Of a stretch of 64,000 nucleotides of DNA, positions 2,219-16,154 are shown piece after piece; the stretch's first letter is position 1, and every line of letters begins with the position of its first letter. The notes under the pieces were generated by a model that saw nothing but the letters and a program-made list of their open reading frames with translations, was not told the DNA's origin and did not search any database. Location of the stretch: NCBI RefSeq assembly GCF_900102795.1, contig NZ_FMWG01000002.1:310001-374000 (forward strand), read 5' to 3'. The translations under genes were made by a program, and so were the position numbers. The DNA is from Epibacterium ulvae. Its GTDB lineage: Bacteria > Pseudomonadota > Alphaproteobacteria > Rhodobacterales > Rhodobacteraceae.

Positions 2219-3484
2219 CTATTCTGCAGCTGTTTTCTGATTTGGAGCTGTGGTTCGGCTGTTGGAGTTCATGAAATCGATCACCAATGGGCGAATGTTG
2301 TTGCGCCAGCTGCGGCCCGCAAAGATACCATAGTGACCTGCATTGGGTTCGACATGGCTCGCCTTTTTACTGTCATCCAATCCAGTACACAGATCAAGCG
2401 CTGCAATGCATTGACCGGGGGCGGAAATGTCGTCTTTAGCACCTTCAACGGTTTTAATCGCCACATCCGTGATCTTGCTTAGATCGACCTTATGGCCATT
2501 CACCACAAATGCGTTCTTTGCGATTTCGCGGTTTTTAAAGATGCGTTCAACGGTCGAAAGATAGAATTCGGCGGGCATGTCCATCACCGCAAGATATTCG
2601 TCATAGAACCGGTTGTGCGGATCGTGGTCTGAGGCGTCTCCCTGTGCGACGCGCCCAATCTGGTCTGCAAAGGCTTTTGAATGACGTTCCATGTTCATCG
2701 ACATGAACGACGAAAGTTGCAGTAGGCCTGGGTAAACTTTACGTCCAACGCCTTTGTATTTAAAACCAACACGTTGGATTGCTGTTTCTTCCAGCTGGCC
2801 CATGGTGACACGGCGCCCAAAATCAGTCACATCAGTTGGGGTTGCGTCCGGGTCAACTGGACCGCCGATCAGGGTGAGGGAGCTGGGCTGTGCCTTTGGG
2901 TCTTGCTCTGCAAGGTAGGCCGTTGCGGCAAGGGTCAAAGGCACGGGCTGACAGACCGCGACGACATGAATATCGTTGCCAAGTTCGCGCATGAAATCGA
3001 CAAGATACTGTGTGTAATCTTCCACATCAAATTTGCCCGCTGAGACGGGGATGTCGCGCGCGTTATGCCAATCCGTGACATAGACTTCGCAGTTTTCCAT
3101 CAGGCTTTTCACGGTTGAGCGCAGCAGCGTAGCATAATGCCCGGACATTGGTGCGACAAGCAGGACGCGGCGGGGTTGTGGTTTGCGGCCAGCAACATGG
3201 AAGTGGATCAGATCTCCGAAAGGACGCTCTACCACAGTGTCCACTTCTACAAGATGATCTTTCCCATCTTCGCAAGTTACGGTATGAATACCCCAGTCTG
3301 GTTTTACGATCATACGCTGAAAAGTTCGCTCGGTCACTTCGCCCCAAGCAGCCATCCAGCTCAGCGCTGGGTTCGGGATCGCCGAGAAGCACGGAGAAGA
3401 GGCAAAGGATAACGCGGAAGCCCCCAGCCATTGGTTGGTGTTTCGCATCGTTTCCATCAGGTCATATGCTACCATGTACCGCAT
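2219..3484 (-). CDS. phaZ: Intracellular polyhydroxyalkanoate depolymerase
   Basis: Hydrolyses intracellular PHB granules to 3-hydroxybutyrate units. The 421-residue product begins MRYMVAYDLMETMRNTN, a typical N-terminus of this depolymerase group. An alpha/beta core has the lipase-like box VAVCQPV, with Cys as nucleophile, as known for intracellular PHB depolymerases. Near the C-terminus EPNAGHYGIFAGRSWRN supplies the catalytic His. I chose the ATG at 3484 because GAGGAGAG lies just upstream; a longer reading to 3508 has no such site. The gene is divergent from phaC and shares a 137-base control region that carries a PhaR-type operator, so breakdown and synthesis may be regulated together. 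Confidence 0.93.
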   Translation of the reverse strand: MRYMVAYDLMETMRNTNQWLGASALSFASSPCFSAIPNPALSWMAAWGEVTERTFQRMIVKPDWGIHTVTCEDGKDHLVEVDTVVERPFGDLIHFHVAGRKPQPRRVLLVAPMSGHYATLLRSTVKSLMENCEVYVTDWHNARDIPVSAGKFDVEDYTQYLVDFMRELGNDIHVVAVCQPVPLTLAATAYLAEQDPKAQPSSLTLIGGPVDPDATPTDVTDFGRRVTMGQLEETAIQRVGFKYKGVGRKVYPGLLQLSSFMSMNMERHSKAFADQIGRVAQGDASDHDPHNRFYDEYLAVMDMPAEFYLSTVERIFKNREIAKNAFVVNGHKVDLSKITDVAIKTVEGAKDDISAPGQCIAALDLCTGLDDSKKASHVEPNAGHYGIFAGRSWRNNIRPLVIDFMNSNSRTTAPNQKTAAE

Positions 3485-3586
3485 CTGGCTCTCCTCAATG
3501 TGCCACACCTTGCAGGAATTTTTCGATAAGAAGGATCACCCTCTCGGAGTTCGCTCTCTTTGTCGTAAAATACCCAGGCCGCTATT

Positions 3587-3597
3587 CTGCATAGCAG
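3587..3597. promoter_or_regulatory. Candidate PhaR operator between phaZ and phaC
   Basis: Reads CTGC-ATA-GCAG, an exact match to the CTGC-N3-GCAG palindrome reported for PhaR of Rhodobacter sphaeroides. It lies 25 bases upstream of the phaC ATG, just before its AGGAGG ribosome site, inside the phaZ-phaC divergent region. A repressor bound here could block both promoters or phaC initiation. The match is direct; occupancy is inferred. Confidence 0.65.
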
Positions 3598-3621
3598 AAA
3601 GACTAGGAGGGATTATTTAAG

Positions 3622-5421
3622 ATGACAACAAGTGAAGACGTTTCAAAAGTGGGTTCGCCAGAACATGTTGATCTTCTTAAGGAAAACATGTCTCGTGTCG
3701 ATGAGCTATCCAAGCGATTGGCACAAGCAGTGGCACTTAAAGAACCACATAACCCGGGATTGGATGGTCCGAATCAAGAATTGTTTGCGCGTGCGGCGAC
3801 GGCATATTGGGCTGAGATGTGGCAGAACCCGGCGCGTTTGATGGAACAGCAAGCCGCCTATTGGGGGCAAACGATGGCAAATTTTGCTGAGGCGCAGAAT
3901 GCGGCCAAAGCAGAAGACGAGATTTCAGAGTCAGCAATCTCGGATCGGCGTTTTTCCCACGGTATGTGGGAGAGCAATCCTTATTTTAGATATATCAAGC
4001 AACAGTATTTAACCAACGCCAATGCCATTCATGAGGCGGTTGAAGAGGTCGACGAGCTTGAACCGATCGATAAAAAACGCTTGCGGTATTTTGCGGATCA
4101 GATTGTCCAGATGATGGCTCCGACGAATTTTCTGGCGACAAACCCAGAAGCGCTTGAACGGGCCCTGGAAACAGATGGTCAATCGCTTGTTGATGGGTTG
4201 GAGAACCTGGTTGCGGATCTTGAAGCCAACAATGGCGAAATGATCGTTCGCCTGGTGGATGAAAACGCCTTTGAGGTGGGCCGCAACCTTGCGACGACAC
4301 CGGGGGATGTGGTTTTTCGCAATAAAATGCTGGAACTGATCCAGTATCGTCCAACGACTGAGACAGTTCATCAGACACCGATCGTGATGTTTCCACCTTG
4401 GATCAACAAATATTATATCCTCGATCTGAAAGAGAAAAATAGTTTTGTGAAATGGGTGACAGATCAGGGCTACACATTGTTTGTGGTCTCATGGGTCAAC
4501 CCGGATGAGAGCTATGCCGATGTTGGCATGGAGGAATATATCCAAGATGGATATTTGAAAGTCATCGACGTTGTAAAAGAAATCTGTGACGTGCCACAGA
4601 TCAATGCGATCGGATATTGTATTGCTGGAACAACGCTGAGCCTGACCTTGGCCTTGCTGAAGGCGCGGGGCGACAAATCTATAAAGTCAGCCACTTTTTT
4701 CACTACGCTGACTGATTTTTCAGATCAGGGAGAGTTCACACCCTTTCTGCAGAATGATTTCATTGACGGGATCGAAGAACAGGTGAGCCATGACGGGATT
4801 TTAAAGTCTTGGATTATGGCGCGTACCTTTTCGTTCCTGCGTTCGAATGATTTGATCTATCGGCCGGCCATACGCAGTTACATGATGGGAGAGGCGCCGC
4901 CTGCTTTTGATCTTTTGTTCTGGAATGGGGATGGATCCAATCTGCCGGGCAAAATGGCGATGCAATATCTGCGTGGTCTGTGCCAGCGCAATGAATTTGC
5001 GGAAGAGGGGTTTGAACTTCTTGGTGAGACGCTCAAACTGAAGGATGTGGATGTACCACTTATGGCGATCAGCTGTGAGACAGATCATATTGCGCAATGG
5101 ACGGAATGTTTGCGCGGCGTGCAGCAGATGGGATCTCGCAGCAAGACCTTTGTCGTTTCCCAATCAGGGCATATCGCAGGGATTGTGAACCCGCCCAACC
5201 GGAACAAGTATGGCCACTATACCAATACCAAACTCAAGGGGAGTGCTGCTGAATGGATGGAAGGTGCCACCTTTAACGAGGGATCGTGGTGGCCGCTGTG
5301 GTCAAATTGGTTGAAAAAACGGTCCGGCAAGCAGGTTCCAGCGCGAAAACCGGGCAGTGAGTCGTCTCCAGCGCTACAGGATGCGCCCGGAAGTTATATT
5401 TTGATCAAGGCAACTGATTGA
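3622..5421 (+). CDS. phaC: Class I poly(3-hydroxyalkanoate) synthase
   Basis: Polymerises 3-hydroxyacyl-CoA into PHB at the granule surface. The 599-residue length suits a class I enzyme that works without PhaE or PhaR subunits. The N-terminal domain contains NPYFRYIKQQYL. The catalytic domain has the lipase-like box GYCIAGT with the nucleophile Cys at about residue 333, an acid region ISCETDHIAQW, and the catalytic His in SQSGHIAGIVNPP. The ATG at 3622 follows AGGAGGGATTATTTAAG. It heads a rightward group phaC-phaP-phaR, although the phaC-phaP gap carries its own operators and probably a separate promoter. Confidence 0.96.
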   Translation: MTTSEDVSKVGSPEHVDLLKENMSRVDELSKRLAQAVALKEPHNPGLDGPNQELFARAATAYWAEMWQNPARLMEQQAAYWGQTMANFAEAQNAAKAEDEISESAISDRRFSHGMWESNPYFRYIKQQYLTNANAIHEAVEEVDELEPIDKKRLRYFADQIVQMMAPTNFLATNPEALERALETDGQSLVDGLENLVADLEANNGEMIVRLVDENAFEVGRNLATTPGDVVFRNKMLELIQYRPTTETVHQTPIVMFPPWINKYYILDLKEKNSFVKWVTDQGYTLFVVSWVNPDESYADVGMEEYIQDGYLKVIDVVKEICDVPQINAIGYCIAGTTLSLTLALLKARGDKSIKSATFFTTLTDFSDQGEFTPFLQNDFIDGIEEQVSHDGILKSWIMARTFSFLRSNDLIYRPAIRSYMMGEAPPAFDLLFWNGDGSNLPGKMAMQYLRGLCQRNEFAEEGFELLGETLKLKDVDVPLMAISCETDHIAQWTECLRGVQQMGSRSKTFVVSQSGHIAGIVNPPNRNKYGHYTNTKLKGSAAEWMEGATFNEGSWWPLWSNWLKKRSGKQVPARKPGSESSPALQDAPGSYILIKATD

Positions 5422-5446
5422 TTTTGCGGGTTTTGCGATAATTTTT

Positions 5447-5486
5447 CTGCGATGCAGCATAAAAAACTTGATTTGCTGCATCGCAG
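5447..5486. promoter_or_regulatory. Paired PhaR operators upstream of phaP, arranged as a 13-bp inverted repeat
   Basis: Two exact CTGC-N3-GCAG sites occur at 5447-5457 (N3 = GAT) and 5476-5486 (N3 = ATC). They sit in perfectly complementary 13-base arms, 5447-5459 and 5474-5486, separated by 14 bases. The pair lies 26 bases after phaC and about 64 bases before the phaP start. PhaR is known in related species to repress phasin genes until granules form. The same arms could also fold as a hairpin at the phaC 3' end, but no T tract follows, so an operator is the better reading. Confidence 0.75.
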
Positions 5487-5549
5487 CATTCATATTGTCA
5501 TCATCAAACAACGCGGTACGAAATCCGCTGCTTTTCAAGGATTACTAAG

Positions 5550-5996
5550 ATGGCTAAGACCCAAGACTTCACCGCACTTATGAAAGACATGATGGGCTCT
5601 TTCCCTGTAGACACATCTGCAATGGAAGACGCATTCAAAAATACCGCCGCTTTGAACGAGAAGCTGGCTTCTGTAGCATTGGAAGCGGCAGAGAAATCTG
5701 CTGAGATTTCAAACGTCTGGACCAAAGACGCGATTGCAAAGCTGGGCACCATTTCCAAAGCGCAAGCAGAGCCTGCGGATTATGCAAAAGTCGCAACTGA
5801 TTATGCATCTGCGTCTGCCGAAGTTGCTGCCGAAAACATGGCGGCCTTTGCTGAAGTTGCCAAGAAAGTTCAAATGGAGACAGTTGAACTGCTGATGGCC
5901 GCTGGGAAAGACATCAGCGAAGAAGCCACAGCTGCTGTAAAAAAAGCCACCGATGAGGTGACCACAGCAGCAAAGAAAGCAACTGCTGCGAAGTAA
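5550..5996 (+). CDS. phaP: Phasin, PHB granule-associated protein
   Basis: A 148-residue Ala/Lys/Glu-rich, helix-forming protein with the phasin_2 look: MAKTQDFTALMKDMMGSFP, then NAAL-type amphipathic helices, and an Ala/Lys tail with two similar segments (AAVKKATDE and AAKKATAAK). Phasins coat PHB granules and control their number and size. The low-complexity tail resembles other phasins with PhaF-like C-termini. The gene stands between phaC and phaR, is preceded by two PhaR-type operators, and is followed by a strong terminator at 6056-6082. It is therefore probably a highly expressed single-gene transcript. Confidence 0.93.
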   Translation: MAKTQDFTALMKDMMGSFPVDTSAMEDAFKNTAALNEKLASVALEAAEKSAEISNVWTKDAIAKLGTISKAQAEPADYAKVATDYASASAEVAAENMAAFAEVAKKVQMETVELLMAAGKDISEEATAAVKKATDEVTTAAKKATAAK

Positions 5997-6055
5997 TTTA
6001 AATCGACATATTGTATCTGTTCCCTCCTCCCTAGAGGTACAGTGTGTTGGTGATA

Positions 6056-6082
6056 GGCAGACCTTTGGGTCTGCCTTTTTTT
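6056..6082 (+). terminator. Rho-independent terminator after phaP
   Basis: An 8-bp perfect stem (GGCAGACC at 6056-6063, GGTCTGCC at 6068-6075) with a four-base loop is followed by seven T. It separates phaP from phaR, so phaR must have its own promoter. Confidence 0.9.
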
Positions 6083-6178
6083 GTTTGATATATGGACAGG
6101 ATGCGGTTGCTGAAGGCGACCCAATCTTTTGTGGTGTTCGCAAGGCTTTTCTTTTGTTTTGCACTCGCATAGGATTTG

Positions 6179-6189
6179 CTGCAGCGCAT
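6179..6189. promoter_or_regulatory. Near-match PhaR operator upstream of phaR
   Basis: Reads CTGC-AGC-GCAT, seven of eight consensus positions of CTGC-N3-GCAG. It lies 22 bases before the phaR ATG. Autorepression of phaR is known in related bacteria and would fit, but the single mismatch keeps this tentative. Confidence 0.4.
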
Positions 6190-6210
6190 CAAGGTTCTGA
6201 GAGGATTGAT

Positions 6211-6768
6211 ATGGCGGAACAGGTCAGCCCCTTACTTATCAAACGATATGCAAGTCGACGGCTCTATAATACAGAAACCAGTGACTATGTGACGCTGGAG
6301 GATATCGCAGGCTTTATCCGCGAAGGGCGCGAAGTTCAGATCGTTGATTTGAAATCTGGCGATGACCTCACGCGCCAATATTTGCTGCAAATTATTGCGG
6401 AACATGAAAGCCGCGGTGAAAATGTGCTGCCAATCAACGTGCTAAGTGATCTGGTGCGCAGCTACATGGTTCCAGGTGGTGGTGTGATGCCGCAATTCCT
6501 GCAAAGCTCGTTTGATATGTTGCGGGAAAGCCAGTCTAAGATGATGGAAAACATGACTTCAATGAATCCCATGGCGCAAATACCGGGATTTGAGGCGATG
6601 AAAAGCCAGCAGGAAGCGTTTCTTAAGGCGATGACGGGCGGTTTTGGGACGGGATGGCCTGGCGCTGGAGAGGCAAGAGACGGCGAAGCATCAGACGGGG
6701 AGGAAGACCTGAGTGATATCAAACGCCAGCTTGCTGAATTACAGGATAAGCTTTCTAAAATGAAATAA
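6211..6768 (+). CDS. phaR: PHB synthesis repressor PhaR
   Basis: A 185-residue DNA-binding repressor that also binds PHB, tying phasin expression to polymer content. The N-terminal PHB/PHA accumulation regulator domain is clear (PLLIKRYASRRLYNTETSDY, then YVTLEDIAGFI and SGDDLTRQYLLQII). A Met-rich middle follows, then a C-terminal helix SDIKRQLAELQDKLSKMK with coiled-coil heptads. The reading frame is open upstream to 6085, but homologues start MAEQ/MA and GAGAGG precedes the ATG at 6211. It is likely autoregulated through the near-match operator at 6179. The 3' end is followed by a structured repeat at 6796-6875. Confidence 0.94.
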   Translation: MAEQVSPLLIKRYASRRLYNTETSDYVTLEDIAGFIREGREVQIVDLKSGDDLTRQYLLQIIAEHESRGENVLPINVLSDLVRSYMVPGGGVMPQFLQSSFDMLRESQSKMMENMTSMNPMAQIPGFEAMKSQQEAFLKAMTGGFGTGWPGAGEARDGEASDGEEDLSDIKRQLAELQDKLSKMK

Positions 6769-6888: not shown

Positions 6889-8097
6889 TCAGGCGGCAGC
6901 GCGGTTTGTTGCTGTTGCTGCAGCCTTTAGTAGGATGTCACAGATTACATCCAGTTCTTCGCGAGACAAACGCACAGGAAGTCTGACGTCACAGGCCTGC
7001 ATCAACATCTTTCGGGTTTGTGGAAGATTTGGCGTGTCGCCTAAAAACTGCCAGTTCCAAAATGCACGGGCATTGTCTTGTGAACGGCCAAAAATCTGAA
7101 CTTTTATACCGTTTTCTGCAGCTGTTGCTGCAAAGAGATCAATCTGTGCTTCGCTTAAACCGACAAGATTGAATTGGATCGAATCCGGCGCACGTTCTTC
7201 GGGCGGCAGCGGATCTGGCACGCGTAAAACATCTGAGCTGTGCAAGCGATCCGCGACATAATTATGATTGGCCAGACCATCGCGCACGCGACGGGCAAGT
7301 TCAGGCAGTTGAGGGCGGATCACCACAGCTGACAGATTGGACATACGCAGGTTGTACAGCGGCAGTTTGTTCTGCCAGCGGTCAAATGCATTCTGAAGCT
7401 CGGGGTCGTTTTGACCTTCTGGCCCTTTGTGCTTTTTCCAATTGTGCTCATAGGCGCCAGACATAATCACGGTACGCGCGATAAGGTCTGCATCGTTGGA
7501 AACAAGGATGCCACCTTCACCTGCGTTGATCATCTTGTAGGACTGAAAGGAGAAACAACCGATTTTCCCCAAGGTTCCTATGTTCTGACCGTGCCAAGTG
7601 GTGCCAAGGGAATGGGCGGCGTCTTCGATCACTGGGATATTACGTGCATTGCACAGCGCCATTATGGCGTCCATGTCAGAGGTGTGACCTCGCATATGGC
7701 TGATGATGACGGCTTTGATGTCTTGGTCCAGCTTGGCCTCAAAATCTGCCATATTGATACGATAGTTGTCTGCAACTTCGCACAGTACGGGCACGCAATC
7801 CGCATGTACAACGGACGAGGGCACGGCTGCAAATGTAAAGGCAGGGATCAGAACACGCGCGTCACGCGGCAGTTCAAGGGCTTTGAGAGAGAGAAACAAA
7901 GCTGCTGAGCAGGAAGAGACAGCCAGCGCATATTTTGTGCCAAGCAACGCCGCAAATTCCTGTTCCAAGAGTGTCACAGGCGCATTTTCTGCGGCCGTGT
8001 AACGGAAAAGATCACCACTTTGCAATAAGGCGTCGATGGCTGCGCGTGCATCCTGGGGAATGGCTTCAGCGGTGTGAACGTCGGGCACTTGTACCAT
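6889..8097 (-). CDS. DegT/DnrJ/EryC1/StrS-family PLP aminotransferase
   Basis: A 402-residue PLP enzyme. Seen are the cofactor-phosphate motif AVSSCSAALFLSLKAL, the Asp in PVIEDAAHSLG, and the Schiff-base Lys in SFQSYKMINAGEGG. The family usually aminates keto-sugars, but also some other carbonyl substrates. No sugar-nucleotide or polysaccharide gene is nearby; instead the gene is the last of a leftward series with glutamine-synthetase-like ligases and an amino-acid importer. A role in amine or amino-acid conversion is therefore possible, but this is inference from position. The ATG at 8097 has AGGA upstream. The 136-base gap to the next gene allows a separate promoter. Confidence 0.82.
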   Translation of the reverse strand: MVQVPDVHTAEAIPQDARAAIDALLQSGDLFRYTAAENAPVTLLEQEFAALLGTKYALAVSSCSAALFLSLKALELPRDARVLIPAFTFAAVPSSVVHADCVPVLCEVADNYRINMADFEAKLDQDIKAVIISHMRGHTSDMDAIMALCNARNIPVIEDAAHSLGTTWHGQNIGTLGKIGCFSFQSYKMINAGEGGILVSNDADLIARTVIMSGAYEHNWKKHKGPEGQNDPELQNAFDRWQNKLPLYNLRMSNLSAVVIRPQLPELARRVRDGLANHNYVADRLHSSDVLRVPDPLPPEERAPDSIQFNLVGLSEAQIDLFAATAAENGIKVQIFGRSQDNARAFWNWQFLGDTPNLPQTRKMLMQACDVRLPVRLSREELDVICDILLKAAATATNRAAA

Positions 8098-8233
8098 ATT
8101 TCAAAATCCTGAATTTACTCTTTGGATAATCTAAATGAAGACGTGAGCTATGCCAACCTGTGTCGCTGTGTTGCGCAAAGATTTCACAGAACTGTTGCGT
8201 GAGAGCGATTTTATCGGCTGAAGATTGCCAGTC

Positions 8234-9592
8234 TCAAACGTTCATAAGCAGATGTTCGCGTTCCCAAGGGGAAATGACCTGTAAAAACTCGTCGTATTCG
8301 GCACGTTTCACGATGGAATACACGCGGGCGAATTCAGGTCCCAGGATTTCATGCAATGCGTTGGATTGGTCAAATAGATCAAGTGCATCGCCCATCACCC
8401 GCGGGATATCCCCATCGCCTTCATAGGCGTCGCCTTTGGATTGGCGCCGCGGCCGCTTCTGCTCCATCAACCCCAAGTAACCACAGGCAAGCGAGAGAGC
8501 GATGCCAAGGTAAGGGTTACAATCCATGCCAGCGATACGGTTTTCGACGCGCCGGGCACTGGGGTCAGAGAGGGGAACGCGAATGCCGGTGGTGCGGTTG
8601 TCACGCGCCCATTCCAGGTTGATGGGGGCTGCGTGGTCTTTCACATAGCGCCGATATGAATTTACATAAGGTGCCATCACTGCAAGACCTGCAGGCAGGT
8701 GGTTCTGGAGCCCTGCGATAAAGTGATAAAAGGCGTCGGTCTCGCCACCTTGGGCACCAGAGAAAATGTTGTTTCCGCTTTCCATATCAATAATGGAATG
8801 GTGAATATGCATCGCGCTTCCCGGCTCATGCGCGATGGGTTTCGCCATAAAGGTTGCAAAGCAATTGTGGCGCAGGGCTGCTTCGCGGATCAGACGTTTG
8901 AAAAAGAAAACCTCATCGGCCAATTTGACGGGGTTTCCGTGGCGCAGATTGATTTCTAACTGACCAGCACCGCCTTCCTGCGTGATGCCATCAATCTCAA
9001 ATCCTTGAGCTTCGGCAAAATCATAGATGTCATCGATGACGGGACCAAATTCATCAACAGCAGTCATCGAATAGGCCTGCCGCGCCGCTGCGGGTCGTCC
9101 TGAGCGGCCCATCATGGGTTCGATTTCACGCGCCGGGTCTGTGTTGCGTGCAACCAGGTAGAATTCCATCTCAGGTGCGACGACAGGTTTCCACCCTTGA
9201 TCATGGTAGAGCTGTACAACGCGTTTCAGAACATTGCGCGGACTGTAAGGAATGGGATTGTGATCCCGATCATAAGCGTCATGGATGACCTGTAGCGTCC
9301 AGTCGCCGGTCCAAGGGGCCGCGGTTGTGGTTGTGAAGTCCGGTTTCAGGATCATGTCTTTTTCGATGAAGCCATCTTCATCGGCGGCTTCACCCCAGCC
9401 GCCTGTGATCGTCTGGAAAAAGATGCTGTCAGGTAGGTGAAAATAGTCTTGGCGTGCAAACTTTGACGCTGGCACCGCTTTGCCGCGGGCAATACCGGGG
9501 AGATCAGAGATGATACATTCCACCTCGTCCAGTCGGTGACCTTCCAGATAGAGCTGGGCGGCTGTGGGCCAAGAGGTGGTCCAATCTGACAT
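8234..9592 (-). CDS. Glutamine synthetase family protein (gamma-glutamyl-amine ligase type)
   Basis: A 452-residue ligase of the glutamine synthetase superfamily, of the PuuA-like class rather than GlnA. Active-site motifs are present: PEMEFYLVAR, TQEGGAGQLEINL, AKPIAHEPGSAMHIHHS and RDNRTTGIRVPLSDPSARR, with the metal-ligand region RVENRIAGMDCNPYLG. Relatives join glutamate to amines such as putrescine, using ATP. The first base of its ATG is the last base of the stop codon of the upstream amidotransferase gene (TAATG), which implies translational coupling. A pair in which one enzyme makes and the other hydrolyses gamma-glutamyl compounds is plausible. The substrate is unknown. Confidence 0.85.
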   Translation of the reverse strand: MSDWTTSWPTAAQLYLEGHRLDEVECIISDLPGIARGKAVPASKFARQDYFHLPDSIFFQTITGGWGEAADEDGFIEKDMILKPDFTTTTAAPWTGDWTLQVIHDAYDRDHNPIPYSPRNVLKRVVQLYHDQGWKPVVAPEMEFYLVARNTDPAREIEPMMGRSGRPAAARQAYSMTAVDEFGPVIDDIYDFAEAQGFEIDGITQEGGAGQLEINLRHGNPVKLADEVFFFKRLIREAALRHNCFATFMAKPIAHEPGSAMHIHHSIIDMESGNNIFSGAQGGETDAFYHFIAGLQNHLPAGLAVMAPYVNSYRRYVKDHAAPINLEWARDNRTTGIRVPLSDPSARRVENRIAGMDCNPYLGIALSLACGYLGLMEQKRPRRQSKGDAYEGDGDIPRVMGDALDLFDQSNALHEILGPEFARVYSIVKRAEYDEFLQVISPWEREHLLMNV

Positions 9593-10272
9593 TAGGGCCT
9601 CGCTGATTGAAAGAAAGACGCAATTTCCTTGGCGAAACGAGCATTGTCGGTGGGCTTATTCAAGCGATCCTGTGCGCGTGCCAACAAGGGATCGGGCACA
9701 ACACCTTTGCCGCGATTTTGAATCAGGCCATCGATAAATGCGCTGTCGAATTCTGGGTGCGCTTGTATCGTCCAAGCATTGCCTTCGTAAGATAGAATTG
9801 CATTCTCGCAAAAGGTGTTTCCAGCAATTGCGCGGGCTGCTTTGGGCCGTTCAACCACTTGATCCTGATGCCAAGCATTGAGGGCGATCGTCTCACCATT
9901 CATTTCATATTCAGTGCGTCCGACGCTCCACCCTTTGTCAAATTTTTCGACACGTCCGCCAAGGGCCTGCGCAATAATTTGATGTCCAAAGCACACGCCA
10001 ACGAGGGGGCGCTTTGCGGCATAGATCTCGCGGATCAATGCTTCGAGGGGGGGGATCCATGAATGGGATTCGTAAGCGCCGTGTTTGGACCCCGTGACCA
10101 GCCAGCCGTCGGCAGCTTCGATGGTATCTGGAAAGACGCCGTCAACCACGGCAAAGGTATCGAATGTAAACCCGTACCCAGAAAGCATCTTGTGAAACAG
10201 CTGGTCGTAATTGCCAAGATTTTGGAACAGCGCCTCTGGCGAGTGTCCGGTCTGAAGGATGCCGATTTTCAT
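9592..10272 (-). CDS. Type 1 (class I) glutamine amidotransferase
   Basis: A 226-residue stand-alone GATase1 domain of the GuaA-like class. The nucleophile elbow is GVCFGHQIIAQALGG and the catalytic His/Glu pair sits in TIQAHPEFDSAF. Such proteins hydrolyse gamma-glutamyl amides; next to a PuuA-like ligase, release of glutamate from a gamma-glutamylated intermediate is the natural guess. It is distinct from the PuuD peptidase C26 group, so the analogy is functional only. The gene is coupled to the downstream ligase by a one-base overlap. A TTTGATCAAG motif lies 11-20 bases before the start codon. Confidence 0.85.
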   Translation of the reverse strand: MKIGILQTGHSPEALFQNLGNYDQLFHKMLSGYGFTFDTFAVVDGVFPDTIEAADGWLVTGSKHGAYESHSWIPPLEALIREIYAAKRPLVGVCFGHQIIAQALGGRVEKFDKGWSVGRTEYEMNGETIALNAWHQDQVVERPKAARAIAGNTFCENAILSYEGNAWTIQAHPEFDSAFIDGLIQNRGKGVVPDPLLARAQDRLNKPTDNARFAKEIASFFQSARP

Positions 10273-10280
10273 AGGTCACC

Positions 10281-10292
10281 AATTTGATCAAG
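10281..10292. promoter_or_regulatory. TTTGATCAAG motif before the amidotransferase-ligase unit
   Basis: AATTTGATCAAG lies immediately upstream of the ribosome site of the gene starting at 10272. The same TTTGATCAA core occurs before two other units of this cluster (11707 and 15217). It is a candidate operator, not matched to a known regulator. Confidence 0.35.
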
Positions 10293-10327
10293 TTCTGTAG
10301 AATGCCAGATATCTCTGACTGATACAG

Positions 10328-11647
10328 TCATACGAGGTCCAGCCAAGTGCGCCAATGGTTCTGGGCTGGTAATGCCGCAAATGTTTTAATTTCTTGACGT
10401 TTCATCATGACCAGATTTTGAATGATCTGAGCCGGGAAAATACGCGCAATAAGCGGATCGCATTCAAAAAGATCTACGGCGTTTTGCCAGGTTGCGGCGA
10501 GACGTGGCAGTCCTTTTTCTTCATAGGTGTTGCCGCCAATGGCGGGCGGTGGGATCATCTTGTCCTCAATCCCGATCAAAGCGGCGCCCAGGATCGCAGT
10601 TAAAAGCAGGTAGGGGTTTATATCTCCACCGGCGACCCGGTGTTCGATCCGTCGGGCCGCAGGGTTTCCACCGGGAATGCGGATGGCTGCCGTGCGGTTT
10701 TCATACCCCCAGGCGGCTTTGGTGGGCGCATGTGCACCCGGAGTAAAGCGTTCATACGAGTTGCCGTGTGGCGCAAAGATCAATGTGCTGGCTGGCATCG
10801 CCGCCACACACCCCCCAACCGCATGTCGCAAGAGCGACGTTCCGGCCTCACCGCCATCATCGAAAACATTCCGGCCGTCTTTGTCCACAATTGAGAAATG
10901 CACATGCATTCCGTTTCCGGCTTCCTCCCCATAGGGTTTGGCCATAAAGGTCGCCGCAAAACCATGTTTGCGCGCAAGGCCGCGTACTAACCCTTTGAAT
11001 AAAAGCGCATCGTCCGCGGCGCGCAAAGCGAGTTGGTGATTGAGGTTAATTTCAAATTGCCCCAGTCCCCCCTCAGAGATCGCGGATTGCGCGGGGATAC
11101 CCATTTCTTCGGCTGCTGCGTAGAGATCAGAGAAAAATGCGTCAAATGCGTCTAGTTCTTCCAAGGACAGGACAGCCTGTTGATCAAGCCGTTGTCCTGT
11201 GGTCGGATTGATCGGCGGTGCGAGATGATCTGAGCTGTCGTCAACCAGATAAAACTCCATTTCGGTGGCAGCCCAGACCTGCCAGCCGCGGTGCGTAAAC
11301 TGTTGCAGTGTGTGGATCAAAGCATGGCGTGGGTCTCCGTCAAAGGCAGATCCATCTTCGTTGTACATCATCATTGGAAAGAGAGCGGATGGGGTGTCTA
11401 GCCATGGCATAGGAAGGGGTCCACGCTCTGTTGGCTTTAACACACCATCTGCGTCGCCTGTTTTAAAGACAAGCTCGCTCTCCTCTACATCCCTGCCAAA
11501 TAGATCCACGTTCAGCGTGGACAGGGGCATTCTTGCGGTACCGTCAGATAGCTTTTCGGCAAGATCAGATGGCATACGTTTGCCCCTCAGAATCCCATTC
11601 ATATCTGCTGCTGCAATGCGAATTGAGGACAAATCTGACAGATCCAT
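10328..11647 (-). CDS. Second glutamine synthetase family protein
   Basis: A 439-residue GS-superfamily ligase, clearly divergent from the 8234-9592 paralogue. Motifs: ATEMEFYLVDD, SEGGLGQFEINL, AKPYGEEAGNGMHVHFS, ENRTAAIRIPGGNPAARR and EHRVAGGDINPYLL. The frame is open to 11746, but the ATG at 11647 directly follows a strong AAGGAGG, and MDLSDLSSIRIA is a natural N-terminus. The N-terminal segment IAAADMNGILRGKRMP corresponds to the usual GS beta-grasp. It probably ligates glutamate to an imported amine or amino acid. A TTTGATCAAAATATT motif lies 60 bases upstream. Confidence 0.85.
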   Translation of the reverse strand: MDLSDLSSIRIAAADMNGILRGKRMPSDLAEKLSDGTARMPLSTLNVDLFGRDVEESELVFKTGDADGVLKPTERGPLPMPWLDTPSALFPMMMYNEDGSAFDGDPRHALIHTLQQFTHRGWQVWAATEMEFYLVDDSSDHLAPPINPTTGQRLDQQAVLSLEELDAFDAFFSDLYAAAEEMGIPAQSAISEGGLGQFEINLNHQLALRAADDALLFKGLVRGLARKHGFAATFMAKPYGEEAGNGMHVHFSIVDKDGRNVFDDGGEAGTSLLRHAVGGCVAAMPASTLIFAPHGNSYERFTPGAHAPTKAAWGYENRTAAIRIPGGNPAARRIEHRVAGGDINPYLLLTAILGAALIGIEDKMIPPPAIGGNTYEEKGLPRLAATWQNAVDLFECDPLIARIFPAQIIQNLVMMKRQEIKTFAALPAQNHWRTWLDLV

Positions 11648-11706
11648 ACCAACCTCCTTGTGCCTTTTTTCAACCGTAACGAAGCCGTGCGCAGACGCAA
11701 AGAAAA

Positions 11707-11721
11707 TTTGATCAAAATATT
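11707..11721. promoter_or_regulatory. TTTGATCAAAATATT motif before the second ligase gene
   Basis: This matches the motif at 15217-15230 (TTTGATCAAATATT) except for one inserted A. It lies 60 bases upstream of the ligase start at 11647 and just past the ABC-operon terminator. A shared operator is inferred from the repeat and its position. Confidence 0.4.
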
Positions 11722-11744
11722 CTGGTTGATGAAACGCTGGCCAC

Positions 11745-11774
11745 AAAAATAAAAAAGGCCCCCAATTGGGAGCC
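11745..11774 (-). terminator. Terminator of the amino-acid ABC transporter operon
   Basis: Reading leftward, a stem of GGC/GCC and CCC/GGG pairs with one internal mismatch and an AATT loop (11757-11774) is followed by a T-rich run (complement of 11745-11756). It lies 8 bases after the stop of the last permease gene. Confidence 0.8.
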
Positions 11775-11781
11775 TTTGGTC

Positions 11782-12588
11782 TTAACGGATCAGGTTGAGT
11801 TTGAGTTTTATCTTTTGTCTTTTGGGACGTGGAAGATGTCTGTTCAAACGGGTGTTTATACGTCCAAACAAAAAGATCACCAGCAGTGTCAGTAAGATGA
11901 AATAAGCCGCTAGGATAGGGTAGGGGACAAATGGATTGAACGTCTTATCCGCAAAGTAATTCGCATAATAAAGCGCATCCCCCTGCTGTCGTTTTGCAGG
12001 AAAGCCTGAGAAGAACACAAGGGTTGTCGCGTGAAACAGAAAGATCGCTTCGTTTGTGTAGGCAGGCCATGCAAGGCGCATTGAGGTCGGCCATAAAACG
12101 CGGCGAAATTTATTCCATCCGGTCAATCCGTATGCATCTGCGGCTTCGACATCTCCTTTTGGCACAGATCGCAAGGCGCCGTAAAAGATTTCAGCGGTAT
12201 AGGCCGAGGTGTTCAGGAACAAAACGACCAATGCCCCCAGCCAGGCTGATGAAAAGGGATCAAAAAACGAAGAGACCGATTTGAGGTTCAAGAACAGGAA
12301 ATACGCAAAGAAGAACTGAATAAACAGCGGAGAGCCCCGAAACAGGAAAACAAAGATCTCTGCTGGTTTGCGCAACACGGGAGATTGCGCCATTTTGGCC
12401 ACTGCAAGTGCATTGGCGAGGAAAAACCCCAAGAGCACAGCGATGCTTCCAAAGTAAATATTCCAAAGCATGCCTGACCCAATCAGGGTAAATTGCTCGC
12501 ATAGGGTGAAATCACTGCGGGGTAACAGGCGTTCCCCATAGCCGATCGCACGCAGGCCATAGTCTTGTATGGTTTGCAGACAGCTCAT
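11782..12588 (-). CDS. Polar amino-acid ABC transporter permease (HisM-like)
   Basis: A 268-residue inner-membrane permease of the His/Glu/Gln/Arg type. Hydrophobic segments are visible around residues 35-60, 75-100 and 105-130 and near the C-terminus (YPILAAYFILLTLLVIFLFG). The EAA-type loop that contacts the ATPase is EAADAYGLTGWNKFRRVLWP. It overlaps the upstream permease gene by 4 bases (ATGA), so the two are made together and presumably form a heterodimer. It is the last gene of the operon and is followed by a terminator at 11745-11774. Confidence 0.9.
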   Translation of the reverse strand: MSCLQTIQDYGLRAIGYGERLLPRSDFTLCEQFTLIGSGMLWNIYFGSIAVLLGFFLANALAVAKMAQSPVLRKPAEIFVFLFRGSPLFIQFFFAYFLFLNLKSVSSFFDPFSSAWLGALVVLFLNTSAYTAEIFYGALRSVPKGDVEAADAYGLTGWNKFRRVLWPTSMRLAWPAYTNEAIFLFHATTLVFFSGFPAKRQQGDALYYANYFADKTFNPFVPYPILAAYFILLTLLVIFLFGRINTRLNRHLPRPKRQKIKLKLNLIR

Positions 12589-13466
12589 GCGGCTTTCCTT
12601 TGGGCTTCTCCAGCGATTGTCGCTTGCCCACGTGAGAGGCGGAGGTGGATGCGATCCAGTATTTTTTCAGAAATTTTGGTGAAGCAGAGATAGAATATCA
12701 ACAAAGCAAGAAAATACCACATACGCCAATCACCGTGCGGGTAATCTGTGAAACGGGCAGATTTGATTCCACCAAGGTCTCGTGCCCAGTAGACGATGTC
12801 TTCCACTCCCAAGAGGAACAGAAGCGGTGTTGCTTTGATCAGAACCATCGAGAGGTTTGACAGACCGGGCAGTGCGTAGACCCACATCTGTGGAACCAGA
12901 ATGCGCCAAAAGGCCTGATTGGGGGTCATGCCATAGGCTTCCGCAGTTTCCATCTGACCATGGGGCACGGACTGCATCGCGCCATATAAGATGTTACCAG
13001 CAAAAGCACCAAAGACGATGGCAAAGGTGATCACGGCCAGCGCAAAGCCATAGGTTTCATGCACCCATTGTGGTGCGTCGCCCAAAGGCATTTTTGCCGT
13101 TTGGCAGACAATAAAATCGGCACCCTGACGAATAGGGTCGTCCCAGTCGGGACATTTTACTTTGTGGCGCAGATATTCGATGCCCTGATCAAGGGCGATC
13201 ACAAAGAATAGGAAAAACGCAACATCGGGTACACCACGCACAATGGCAATGTAGCCTTTGCCAAACCAACGAAATGGCGCGATGCGGGATCTTGCTGCTA
13301 TCGCACCGCCAAACCCGAAGCTGAGCGCAACAGGGGCCGTGACAGCAAGAAGAATAAGCACGGTGAAAACCGCACTATAAAGTGACATATGCTTTCCCGT
13401 GGTCAGATAGCAGGAGAGCCAGGTCAAACCAGAGAGAGATTGAGGGTCAGCGCAGTAAGAAAACAT
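12585..13466 (-). CDS. Polar amino-acid ABC transporter permease (HisQ-like)
   Basis: A 293-residue inner-membrane permease, partner of the downstream HisM-like protein. The EAA loop is ETAEAYGMTPNQAFWRILVP. Membrane segments include SAVFTVLILLAVTAPVALSF near the N-terminus and MWYFLALLIFYLCF near the C-terminus. An insertion of about 50 residues with two Cys (VKCPDWDDPIRQGADFIVCQ) lies in a loop between membrane helices and may form a periplasmic disulphide. It is separated from the binding-protein gene by a GC-rich hairpin at 13488-13523. The specificity is not readable from the sequence; a basic or polar amino acid is likely. Confidence 0.9.
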   Translation of the reverse strand: MFSYCADPQSLSGLTWLSCYLTTGKHMSLYSAVFTVLILLAVTAPVALSFGFGGAIAARSRIAPFRWFGKGYIAIVRGVPDVAFFLFFVIALDQGIEYLRHKVKCPDWDDPIRQGADFIVCQTAKMPLGDAPQWVHETYGFALAVITFAIVFGAFAGNILYGAMQSVPHGQMETAEAYGMTPNQAFWRILVPQMWVYALPGLSNLSMVLIKATPLLFLLGVEDIVYWARDLGGIKSARFTDYPHGDWRMWYFLALLIFYLCFTKISEKILDRIHLRLSRGQATIAGEAQRKAA

Positions 13467-13487
13467 CAGGCCTTCGTAAATAAAAGA

Positions 13488-13523
13488 CGCGACAAGCAGG
13501 CCTGAGGGGCCACGCCTGTCGCG
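13488..13523 (-). promoter_or_regulatory. Intercistronic hairpin between binding protein and permease genes
   Basis: A 7-bp outer stem (CGCGACA 13488-13494 with TGTCGCG 13517-13523) encloses an inner GGCC/GGCC stem. No T run follows. Hairpins in this place often stabilise the upstream binding-protein message or attenuate the permease genes. Confidence 0.45.
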
Positions 13524-13538
13524 GTACTGTTAGTGCAA

Positions 13539-14258
13539 TCAGAAGGTCTGAGCACCCTCGCCAAACCACTTGGAGATCAGTGTATTCAGGCTGCCATCTG
13601 CTTTCATCGTTTCGATTGCAGCGTCAAATTTGGCTTTGAGCTCGGCATCAGACTCGCGGATGCCCATGGCAACGCCGCCACCAAGAGGAACCGGTTCGCC
13701 AACCCAAACAATATCTGCATTCTCTTCGACGATGGGTTCAAGGAATGATCCCTGGAAGAAGACGCTGTCAGCTTCGCCACTGCGTAGGGCGGCAATCAGT
13801 TCATCGCCCGTTGCATATTCCAGCAGGGTAGCACCGCTTTCAGCCACATAGGCGGATTGGATGGTTGAGGTTTGTGATGCAACGACGCCATCAATGTCTG
13901 CATCTTCTGACAGACCGATATAGCGGGAGGCTTCTGGTGGAATGTAAGCTTGGGTAAAGTCGATGACCTCATCACGTTCATCGGTGATCGACATGCCAGC
14001 GATGATAGTATCATAGTTGCCAGAAACGAGATTCGGGATGATTGAATCCCATTCGTTTGTGACCCATTCACACTTCAGCTCAGCTGCCTCACACAGGGCG
14101 TCACCCAGTTCGCGCTCAAAACCATCAACCTCACCATCGTCATTGATAAAGTTATAAGGTGCATATGCGCCTTCGGTGCCCATACGTACAGTGGTATCCG
14201 CGAATGCGACACCCGCGCTCAATACAAGAGCTGTGGTGCTTAGGATAATGGACTTCAT
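13539..14258 (-). CDS. Periplasmic amino-acid-binding protein of the ABC transporter
   Basis: A 239-residue solute-binding protein of family 3. A signal peptide is clear (MKSIILSTTALVLSAGVAFA), followed by DTTVRMGTEGAYAPYNFIND, the usual start of the mature protein. Ligand-site features include DTIIAGMSITDERDEVIDFT, where the Arg would hold the substrate carboxylate. It belongs to the histidine/lysine-arginine-ornithine binding group by general look. The ATG at 14258 has an AGGGGAG site. The gene lies between the ATPase and permease genes, the usual order in this family. Confidence 0.92.
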   Translation of the reverse strand: MKSIILSTTALVLSAGVAFADTTVRMGTEGAYAPYNFINDDGEVDGFERELGDALCEAAELKCEWVTNEWDSIIPNLVSGNYDTIIAGMSITDERDEVIDFTQAYIPPEASRYIGLSEDADIDGVVASQTSTIQSAYVAESGATLLEYATGDELIAALRSGEADSVFFQGSFLEPIVEENADIVWVGEPVPLGGGVAMGIRESDAELKAKFDAAIETMKADGSLNTLISKWFGEGAQTF

Positions 14259-14307
14259 TTAGATTCATCTCCCCTTTTTGGATCGTTATTACTTGTTTTA
14301 TCTGAGG

Positions 14308-15084
14308 TTAACCGTGGCGCGTGGATTTGAGAAACCCCTTGAGCCGTTCGGATTGCGTATTGGCGAAGACTTGATCAGGTGACCCTTGTTCTTCGACCAA
14401 ACCTTGATGCAGAAAGACCACCTGGGTTGAGACATCTGCCGCCATATCCATGTCATGCGTCACAATAATCATTGTACGGCCTTCTTTCGCCAGATCTTTG
14501 ATGACTTTGATAACTTCCTGTTCCAACTCTGGGTCCAGCGCAGATGTTGGTTCATCAAAGAGCAGGGCTTCCGGCTCCATACACAAGGCGCGTGCGATAG
14601 CTGCGCGTTGCTGCTGGCCGCCTGAAAGCTGGGCTGGATACATATTGCCTTTGTCGCCAATACCAACCTGGTTTAGGTAGTGTCTGGCTTTTTCTTCGAC
14701 TTCGCCTTTGTCACGCCCAAGCACGGTAATGGGTGCTTCCATAACATTCTGCAGAATGGTCATATGCTGCCAGAGATTAAATTGCTGGAACACCATGCTG
14801 AGGTTCGTGCGGACGCGGATGACTTGTTTTGCATCACCAGGGCGACGGTTTGGCCCGCTCCCTGCCCAAGAAATAGGTTCGCCCTGAAAGAGGATTTCCC
14901 CGTTCTGGCTGTCCTCAAGCAAGTTGCAACAGCGCAGCAAGGTTGATTTCCCCGACCCCGACGATCCAATCAGTGAAACCACGTCTCCCCGATGTGCGGT
15001 GATACTGACGCCTTTTATGACGTCTAAATCGCCATAAGATTTGTGTAGATCACGAATTTCGAGAACGGGTGTTTGTTCAGTCAA
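14308..15084 (-). CDS. Amino-acid ABC transporter ATP-binding protein (HisP/GlnQ-like)
   Basis: A 258-residue ATPase that energises the importer. Walker A is GSSGSGKST, the Q-loop is in MVFQQFNLW, the signature is [15 protein letters not shown], Walker B is [12 protein letters not shown] and the H-loop is [10 protein letters not shown]. The start is a TTG at 15084: no ATG or GTG exists between the upstream in-frame region and Walker A that would leave a full N-terminus ([18 protein letters not shown]). It is the first gene of the operon ATPase - binding protein - permease - permease. A TTTGATCAAATATT motif lies 133 bases upstream. Confidence 0.92.
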
Positions 15085-15241: not shown

Positions 15242-15691
15242 TCACGAGTGTGAACGGTCTGTTTCGACTTTTTGGCGGATGCGCGCGCTGTCGACATCAT
15301 TTACCCCAAGGAGGTTGGTTGCCAAACGCAACAGCGCATCTTCTTCGGGATCGCGGTCTCCGTCTGCAAGGACCACTTGCCACATGGCTTCAACGATGGC
15401 GATACGCTCTTCGTAAACCACAGCTTCTTTGATCGCGCGGGTAAAGCGCACGGTGTCTGGCGCTTCGGCTTCCATTTCTTCAGCTTGTTCGCGCAAGAGT
15501 GTCGCTTCACCCAGCTCTAAGTCGAAACGAGTGCCAATAATTCGGTCGATCCGGTCTTTTTCAATCTCTGCATAATCGTGATCAGACCGGGCGATACGCA
15601 CCAAAAGGGCGCTTAAGGCCAGCCGCGCATCGGTGTCCTGTAGGGGTTCATTGATGGGGGCAAGCAGGAGATTGAGAATATCTTTAAACAT
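15242..15691 (-). CDS. TerB-like protein, second of two tandem copies
   Basis: A 149-residue acidic, all-helical protein of the TerB/tellurite-resistance type. The pattern LALSALLVRIARSDHDYAEIEKDRID in the first half and VVLADGDRDPEEDALLRLATNLLGV in the second provides two acidic, putative metal-binding helical hairpins. It is a paralogue of the gene directly upstream, which shares the LVRxAxSDxDYxxxE and VVLAD signatures. The frame is open to 15790, but the ATG at 15691 lies one base after the stop of the upstream copy, so the two are coupled. The cellular role is unknown; no other ter genes are present. Confidence 0.75.
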   Translation of the reverse strand: MFKDILNLLLAPINEPLQDTDARLALSALLVRIARSDHDYAEIEKDRIDRIIGTRFDLELGEATLLREQAEEMEAEAPDTVRFTRAIKEAVVYEERIAIVEAMWQVVLADGDRDPEEDALLRLATNLLGVNDVDSARIRQKVETDRSHS

Positions 15692-15692
15692 G

Positions 15693-16154
15693 TCACTCGG
15701 TCTTTGCACTTGGGTAAAGCTTTGCATGCGCTTTTGCGCGTGCTTTTTTGTTGTCGATGACAGAAAGGCCCATCGCTTTGCAGGCGTCATCTACAATCTG
15801 AACTTCGCCTTCACGTTCGATGTTGTCCGCTAAAACCACCTCCCACAGCGCATCAAGCGCAGCTAGGCGCTCTTCCAGCCCCGTGGTTTCGCGGATCAAC
15901 CGTCCAAAAGTATCGGTTTCGGGTGCTGCGGCGTGCAGTTTTTCACAGGTGGCGCGGACTTTGGCTGCTTCTAATGCATTGTGCTGATAAAGCCGTGCCA
16001 GAATGCGATCGATCAGGCTGATTTCCTCAACTTGGTAATCACGATCAGATTGTGCCACACGAACCAAAAGAGCCCCCAACGCCAGTTCAGCGTCTGGATC
16101 GGGCAAAGGTGAGGATGTCTTGGGGCGAAACGCCTGAAAAAGTTTTTTCAACAT
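15693..16154 (-). CDS. TerB-like protein, first of two tandem copies
   Basis: A 153-residue helical protein with the TerB pattern LALGALLVRVAQSDRDYQVEEI and, in the second half, EVVLADNIEREGEVQIVDDA. It begins MLKKLFQAFRP, followed by a short flexible linker. It lies immediately upstream of, and is paralogous to, the 15242-15691 gene, separated by one base. TerB-domain proteins are linked to tellurite and envelope stress in some bacteria, but these isolated copies are of unknown function. It is preceded by a weak GGGGGA ribosome site. Confidence 0.75.
   Translation of the reverse strand: MLKKLFQAFRPKTSSPLPDPDAELALGALLVRVAQSDRDYQVEEISLIDRILARLYQHNALEAAKVRATCEKLHAAAPETDTFGRLIRETTGLEERLAALDALWEVVLADNIEREGEVQIVDDACKAMGLSVIDNKKARAKAHAKLYPSAKTE

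Follow-up and report, generated by a model that had tools for sequence, protein, structure and literature searches.

Organization of the locus

The window analyzed here is a 64,000-nucleotide stretch of the Epibacterium ulvae genome (contig NZ_FMWG01000002.1, positions 310,001 to 374,000). Between its positions 6889 and 15084 lie eight genes encoding two glutamine synthetase (GS)-family ligases, a glutamine amidotransferase (GATase)-fold protein, a four-part ATP-binding cassette (ABC) importer and a DegT-type aminotransferase, which an initial annotation had proposed to form a gamma-glutamylation pathway for an amine. A check of the open reading frames (ORFs) recovered all eight at the annotated coordinates on the minus strand, with Pfam domains that match expectation (PF01041, PF00120 twice, PF00117, PF00528 twice, PF00497 and PF00005), and the genes and their placement are therefore as annotated. 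Transcription runs from the ATPase through the substrate-binding protein (SBP), two permeases, GS2, GATase and GS1 to DegT. The features, in that order, are as follows.

14308..15084, minus: ATPase of a polar amino-acid (HisP-type) ABC importer; PF00005; best NCBIfam model HisP, at 328.6 bits short of the 466 cut-off
13539..14258, minus: family-3 SBP, orthologue of R. (Silicibacter) pomeroyi 3i6v; PF00497; phmmer E 1.3e-101
13752..13754, minus: codon of SBP residue Gln169, which aligns with ArgT/LAO Asp161; from the SBP alignment, codon checked
12585..13466, minus: ABC permease 1; PF00528
11782..12588, minus: ABC permease 2; PF00528
11754..11777, minus: intrinsic-terminator-like hairpin at the importer/ligase boundary; 10-bp stem, T-rich tail
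10328..11656 (alternative start TTG at 11746), minus: GS2, PuuA-like glutamate-amine ligase; PF00120; 41% identical to PuuA
9592..10272, minus: GATase, class-I glutamine-amidotransferase-fold hydrolase, probable gamma-glutamyl hydrolase; PF00117; Cys and His-x-Glu motifs
8234..9592, minus: GS1, SpuB-like glutamate-amine ligase; PF00120; ~50% identical to GS genes near SpuC and polyamine SBP genes
8098..8233, no strand: 136-bp gap at the place of the PuuB-like oxidase gene of relatives; no recognizable remnant
6889..8097, minus: DegT/DnrJ/EryC1-family aminotransferase, read as an accessory neighbor; PF01041; pyridoxal phosphate (PLP)-lysine motif FSFQSYK

The GATase and GS1 genes overlap by one base, making GS2-GATase-GS1 a compact unit.

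Ligases and hydrolase

GS2 is 40.9% identical to Escherichia coli PuuA over 384 amino acids and GS1 is 34.6% identical over 436; the two ligases share ~31% identity with each other. In an alignment with E. coli GlnA, PuuA and relatives, the positions E129, E131, E212, E220, H269, R321, R339, R344, E357 and R359 are kept in both, and with them the metal, ATP and glutamate residues of glutamine synthetase. Residues D50, Y179 and E327, which we take to be the ammonium site of glutamine synthetase, are changed in GS1 and GS2, and likewise in PuuA. Because the catalytic residues are kept and the ammonium pocket is lost, both proteins fit amine ligases rather than glutamine synthetases, and on the changed pocket a reading as ammonia-forming paralogues is rejected.

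GS1 is ~50% identical to GS genes of Pseudomonas and Aeromonas whose neighbors are SpuC and polyamine SBP genes. Among the 25 plasmid matches to GS1 listed (188 records), the contexts of eight were looked at. FAD oxidases lie beside or near the GS1-like ligase in three (H2, H14 and H17), and a SpuC-like gene with polyamine SBPs in two (H10 and H24). H23 has neither, H22 (unannotated) gave weak transporter and GntR matches only, and H1 is unannotated.

The GATase is a probable gamma-glutamyl hydrolase. It scores 40.9 with PF00117 and carries the Cys and His-x-Glu motifs; Peptidase_C26 passes its Pfam cut-off (23.0 versus 20.5 bits) over 31 residues only. The solved structure that matches best is gamma-glutamyl peptidase 1, a plant protein (E 2e-24), and the best NCBIfam model is PRK05665, with a score below cut-off. 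Orthology with PuuD is rejected on a BLAST match of E 0.19 over 33 residues.

Conservation of the gene cluster

Conservation was examined in two samples. Loci for the neighborhood survey were drawn from GTDB by similarity to GS2; of 343 matches the best 80 were used, a set biased to close relatives. Downstream genes were counted in the 74 loci that extend at least 6 kb past GS2, and upstream genes in the 70 that extend at least 5 kb ahead of it. The genus sample comprised 100 genomes of the window's family, one per genus, including that of the window. Surveyed loci are numbered with the prefix L, sampled genomes with G (G000 being the window genome) and contigs of the window genome with C.

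Downstream of GS2, the GATase is present in all 74 loci, GS1 in 73, a FAD oxidase in 70 and DegT in 67. Upstream, all four importer parts occur in 40 of 70 loci, and the full order of importer, GS2, GATase, GS1, oxidase and DegT in 31 of the 80. GS1 itself is 80-89% identical in 65 of 74 loci and 67-76% in the other nine. One record titled Nocardioides marinus (L005) contains this roseobacter cluster at 59-86% identity, which is probably contamination or mislabelling. With GS2, GATase and GS1 together in nearly all surveyed loci, the association is beyond chance, and GS-GATase-GS is a conserved Rhodobacterales module. The gamma-glutamylation pathway proposed in the initial annotation is supported by this conserved order together with the identity to PuuA, the lost ammonium pocket and the gamma-glutamyl peptidase relative of the GATase.

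In the genus sample, a GS1-class ligase is found in 95 genera, the oxidase in 96 and DegT in 61. Ligase and oxidase occur together in 94 genera, the ligase alone in one, the oxidase alone in two and neither in three (Fisher p 2.4e-4, uncorrected for the relatedness of genera). Paralogues contribute to the ligase count: for 17 of the 95 genomes the best match reaches only 50-61% identity, and this match may be GS1', a paralogue described below. The two genes lie no more than 3 kb apart in 75 of the 94 genera, in G024 and G071 through a second ligase copy.

A candidate oxidase encoded in trans

All 64 surveyed loci that contain GS1, DegT and a PuuB-like FAD oxidase have the oxidase gene between the other two. 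This linked oxidase is 44% identical to PuuB over 427 amino acids. The window, L025, L033, L036 and L078 lack it, and the 136-bp GS1-DegT gap of the window holds no recognizable remnant. At its locus, the close window relative G003 (L036/L145) keeps only GS2, GATase and DegT of these genes, GS1 and the oxidase both being gone, and it carries the same Asp-to-Gln change in its SBP.

The window genome (3.99 Mb, 99.7% complete) encodes one PuuB-class homologue with E <1e-100, a full-length protein at C20:60416-61753. It shares 40.8% identity over 422 amino acids with E. coli PuuB (E 3e-117) and 54% with the linked form; the next PuuB matches in the genome are only 30-33% identical. The earlier statement that PuuB and PuuC are missing holds for PuuB within the cluster and fails for PuuB in the genome. 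For PuuC, the genome offers 11 candidate dehydrogenases (E<=1e-60, 32-40% identical), none of them linked.

Among 41 genomes searched, that of the window included, 27 have an oxidase match at E<=1e-100, exactly one each. DegT is present in 22 of the 41: in 13 the oxidase is linked beside it, and in seven only an unlinked oxidase, here called type B, is found (G000, G002, G006, G008, G013, G017 and G024). G014 is undecided, with oxidase and DegT both at contig ends, and G003 has no oxidase at this threshold, GS1 also being gone from its locus. In a tree of 37 rows, the seven unlinked oxidases fall into a single clade (100/100 support) and are set apart from the linked forms (88/89).

Two of the seven type-B oxidases lie in polyamine-type clusters. 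The one in G006, which we call module B, comprises a PotFGHI-like importer, GntR, GS1', the oxidase, GS2', a further FAD oxidase, agmatinase and GATase'; that in G024 comprises PotF, PotG, PotH, GntR, GS1', SpuC and the oxidase. The PotF-like proteins score below and the agmatinase above the NCBIfam cut-offs. R. pomeroyi PotFGHI is described in PMC10130141 as taking up cadaverine, putrescine and spermidine. The second FAD oxidase of module B, at L173:11320-12627, shares 49% identity with E. coli PuuB, more than the 41% of the type-B oxidase. A ZnuA-like gene adjoins the oxidase in G002, G008, G013, G017 and the window genome. A CheB/CheD pair lies ~5-6 kb from it in G006 and the window genome, and was not found in the 17-kb stretches around the oxidase of G002, G008, G013 and G017.

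The only other GS-family proteins of the window genome are a presumed GlnA (the best PF00120 match) and one in an ethanolamine-type cluster, which leaves the C20 oxidase with no other obvious partners than GS1 and GS2. By elimination, we infer that this oxidase is a remnant of a polyamine module and now serves GS1 and GS2.

The importer and its binding protein

The SBP_bac_3 fold of the binding protein was confirmed (PF00497; Z 22-28 to 3i6v, NocT and LAO entries). A structural model (pLDDT 90) aligns with 3i6v at a VIA-align Z of 27.7 and 71% identity. The six module SBPs that match 3i6v best are 87-90% identical to it, so that it represents the same importer. Its title is legible as 'in complex with ly', which we take to mean lysine. 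PMC8786288 assigns 3i6v to A. variabilis, whereas Silicibacter pomeroyi is the species named in the structure title.

At the position of LAO Asp161, only the SBPs of the window and L036 have Gln; the remaining 34 in the alignment of 36 have Asp, as do 3i6v, E. coli ArgT and HisJ. We presume that D161 binds the alpha-amino group of the ligand, and a D161A mutant is present among the LAO structure entries. The equivalents of Arg77, the carboxylate-binding residue, and of Ser72 are conserved in all 36 SBPs. The Gln speaks against plain lysine import by the window system, and a change of ligand may have occurred in this lineage.

The terminator-like hairpin between permease 2 and GS2 suggests that importer and enzymes are neighbors but probably separable units. 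Similar hairpins occur in 14 of 46 permease 2-GS2 gaps shorter than 600 bp in other loci, with some genomes counted twice; in several deep-branching loci the gap is too short for one. Terminator-like matches are not enriched across the region (11 found versus 9.5 in shuffles). At the importer's place, Ruegeria loci such as L020:6466-9870 have a TetR-like gene and a two-subunit xanthine-dehydrogenase-type oxidoreductase, which could be an aldehyde-oxidizing step.

Polyamine import by the linked ABC system is unsupported, its SBP being of the SBP_bac_3 type and a PotF-type importer being encoded elsewhere in the genome.

Comparison with known systems

The locus resembles the E. coli Puu pathway in its PuuA-like ligases with a non-ammonium pocket, in the PuuB homologue of the genome and in the probable gamma-glutamyl hydrolase beside a ligase. 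It differs in having two ligases instead of one, an unlinked oxidase, an ABC importer in place of PuuP, and a PRK05665/gamma-glutamyl-peptidase-like hydrolase that is not a PuuD homologue by BLAST; the cluster also lacks a linked dehydrogenase or regulator.

With the spuI/spuABCDEFGH and PauABCD system of Pseudomonas aeruginosa it shares the grouping of GS, GATase, GS, aminotransferase and ABC importer in one place (PMC10606097 for part of the spu order). GS1 resembles the GS genes near SpuC in Pseudomonas and Aeromonas, as described above, but its own neighbors differ: the aminotransferase has the DegT fold (PF01041) rather than that of class III SpuC, and the importer is of the family-3 amino-acid type rather than SpuDEFGH. 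The SpuC-like gene and PotF-type importer of the window genome lie instead on C8.

A further counterpart is module B, found in G006 and L173. Its ligases are paralogous to those of the window (56% and 47% identical), its hydrolase is 49% identical, and its oxidase is of the type found in the window genome (61%). Module B has a linked polyamine-type importer and agmatinase, whereas the C20 region of the window genome holds only the oxidase of this unit.

The Phaeobacter ethanolamine operon (PMC10132767) likewise combines a GS-family ligase, oxidation of the capped compound and a gamma-glutamyl hydrolase. Its counterpart in the window genome is a separate cluster, C29:2193-10839 (L094), which encodes an RpiR-like regulator, an amidohydrolase-like protein, a TRAP importer, a GS-family ligase, an aldehyde dehydrogenase and a Fe-alcohol dehydrogenase. 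The C29 order equals that of the operon in Phaeobacter MED193 (PMC10132767), a match by gene order only.

Proposed pathway and alternative explanations

Gene content, conservation, active-site residues and the homology and distribution of the oxidase, all read from sequence, lead us to infer a Puu/Spu-type catabolic module for gamma-glutamyl amines that uses a trans-encoded oxidase, with the importer feeding the amine pool and DegT outside the pathway. We assign this reading a probability of about 0.68. An amine would be capped with glutamate by GS1, GS2 or both, and the free amino end of the capped amine would be converted to an aldehyde by a PuuB-family FAD oxidase, a step presumably supplied in the window genome by the orphan homologue at C20:60416-61753. 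An aldehyde dehydrogenase would then yield the acid, and the GATase-fold hydrolase would remove the glutamate cap. The adjoining importer probably brings a basic amino acid or derivative into the same pool.

The substrate is most likely a diamine of the putrescine/cadaverine type. The enzyme family points to polyamines through homology to PuuA and PuuB, through module B with its PotF-type importer and agmatinase, and through the GS1 homologues that have SpuC and polyamine SBP genes as neighbors. The family of the importer suggests a basic amino acid or a derivative of one. Both indications could hold if arginine, lysine or ornithine, once imported, were a source of diamines. The window genome encodes an SpeA-type arginine decarboxylase above cut-off (635.7 versus 624.1 bits) and an unassigned PLP decarboxylase.

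Several observations weigh against this interpretation. Neither ligase reaches the GGputSyn (NF045547) cut-off of 650 (171 and 190 bits), so the amine is not assignable by family. The C20 oxidase stands alone, which makes its pairing with GS1 and GS2 one by elimination, and four of the six other type-B oxidases also have no polyamine genes nearby. No aldehyde dehydrogenase is linked to the cluster. GS1-like plasmid genes in Sinorhizobium, Azospirillum and Shewanella have no adjoining polyamine importer, and the window importer is itself of the family-3 amino-acid type. Its link to the ligases is loosened by the hairpin and by 25 of 70 loci with an Xdh-type gene pair and without the importer. 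The separate PotF-type importer beside a SpuC-like class III aminotransferase on C8 means that polyamine uptake need not depend on the window locus. Finally, G099 has the ligase without an oxidase at the threshold used, and G047 and G062 show the reverse.

The initial annotation had suggested that the aminotransferase could take the place of PuuB and PuuC; it would then deaminate the gamma-glutamyl intermediate. DegT adjoins GS1 in the window, it is conserved in most surveyed loci and it has the PLP-lysine motif; Pseudomonas SpuC illustrates that an aminotransferase can perform a comparable step (PMC10606097). This substitution is nevertheless very unlikely, given the PuuB homologue in trans, the presence of oxidase and DegT together in 64 loci and the independent distribution of DegT. 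DegT is absent from 39 of 100 genera, of which 36 have the GS1-class ligase and 36 the oxidase, so that 36 of the 95 ligase-bearing genera lack it, and no DegT/ligase association is seen (59/36 versus 2/3, p 0.38). Of the 59 genera with DegT and the ligase, 17 have them more than 3 kb apart, in some cases owing to contig breaks. The G006 locus has lost the importer, GS2, GATase and GS1, and DegT stays between TerB and PhaR. The solved relatives of DegT act on sugars, cyclitols or aminohydroxybenzoate. We read DegT as an accessory neighbor; a role as the deaminating enzyme is rejected on its co-occurrence with the oxidase and its independent distribution. Decay of the pathway in the window lineage, with the remaining genes as leftovers, is improbable. 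It would account for the missing linked oxidase and for G003, where the locus has no GS1 and no oxidase in the genome reaches E<=1e-100, but all window ORFs are intact, their catalytic residues are kept and GS1 is highly conserved across loci. Moreover, six other genera have DegT and GS1 no more than 3 kb apart with no oxidase close by, and each of them encodes an unlinked one.

The importer suggests another possibility, which we consider unlikely: that the module acts directly on imported lysine, ornithine or an opine-like N-substituted relative, with gamma-glutamylation of the alpha-amino group, oxidation of the other end and release of a dicarboxylic amino acid. Consistent with this, a basic-amino-acid-type importer is linked in 40 of 70 loci, the Arg77 and Ser72 equivalents are invariant, and the title of the orthologous structure presumably names lysine. 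Against it, the enzyme families and paralogous modules point to polyamines, the hairpin splits off the importer, which is replaced in 25 loci, and the presumed alpha-amino-binding Asp is Gln in the window. A more elaborate version, less likely still, would be an undescribed route in which GS1 or GS2 caps the alpha-amino group of lysine or ornithine and so prevents ring closure, a PuuB-type enzyme oxidizes the terminal amine, and uncapping yields 2-aminoadipate or glutamate; the Asp-to-Gln change would have shifted the window importer to an opine-like N-substituted amino acid. Among the titles and abstract openings listed, none describes the module or a gamma-glutamyl-lysine catabolic route; subscription papers lay outside that scope, and this is weak evidence of novelty.

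Surrounding genes

The genes phaZ, phaC, phasin and phaR for polyhydroxybutyrate (PHB) adjoin the module at window positions 2219-6768. A phaR match occurs in 69 of 80 surveyed loci, indicating that the whole PHB-plus-module block is syntenic. Upstream of the importer, at 15242-16154, lie two tandem TerB-domain (PF05099) proteins, which are common in relatives; the listed ORFs overlap. Between window positions 5000 and 17000, no RNA elements were found at Rfam gathering thresholds. Promoter-like matches are not enriched (8 found versus 7.2 expected from shuffles).

Implications

The gene set is ordinary in kind and unusually arranged, and its points of interest are the altered importer pocket and the substrate. 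A cluster can miss its oxidase while a paralogue from another module sits elsewhere in the genome; annotation from the cluster alone would then wrongly call the pathway incomplete or misassign the step. The presence of a GS1-class ligase and a PuuB-like oxidase in 94 of 100 genera suggests that gamma-glutamylation would be a widespread amine-nitrogen route of marine Rhodobacterales.

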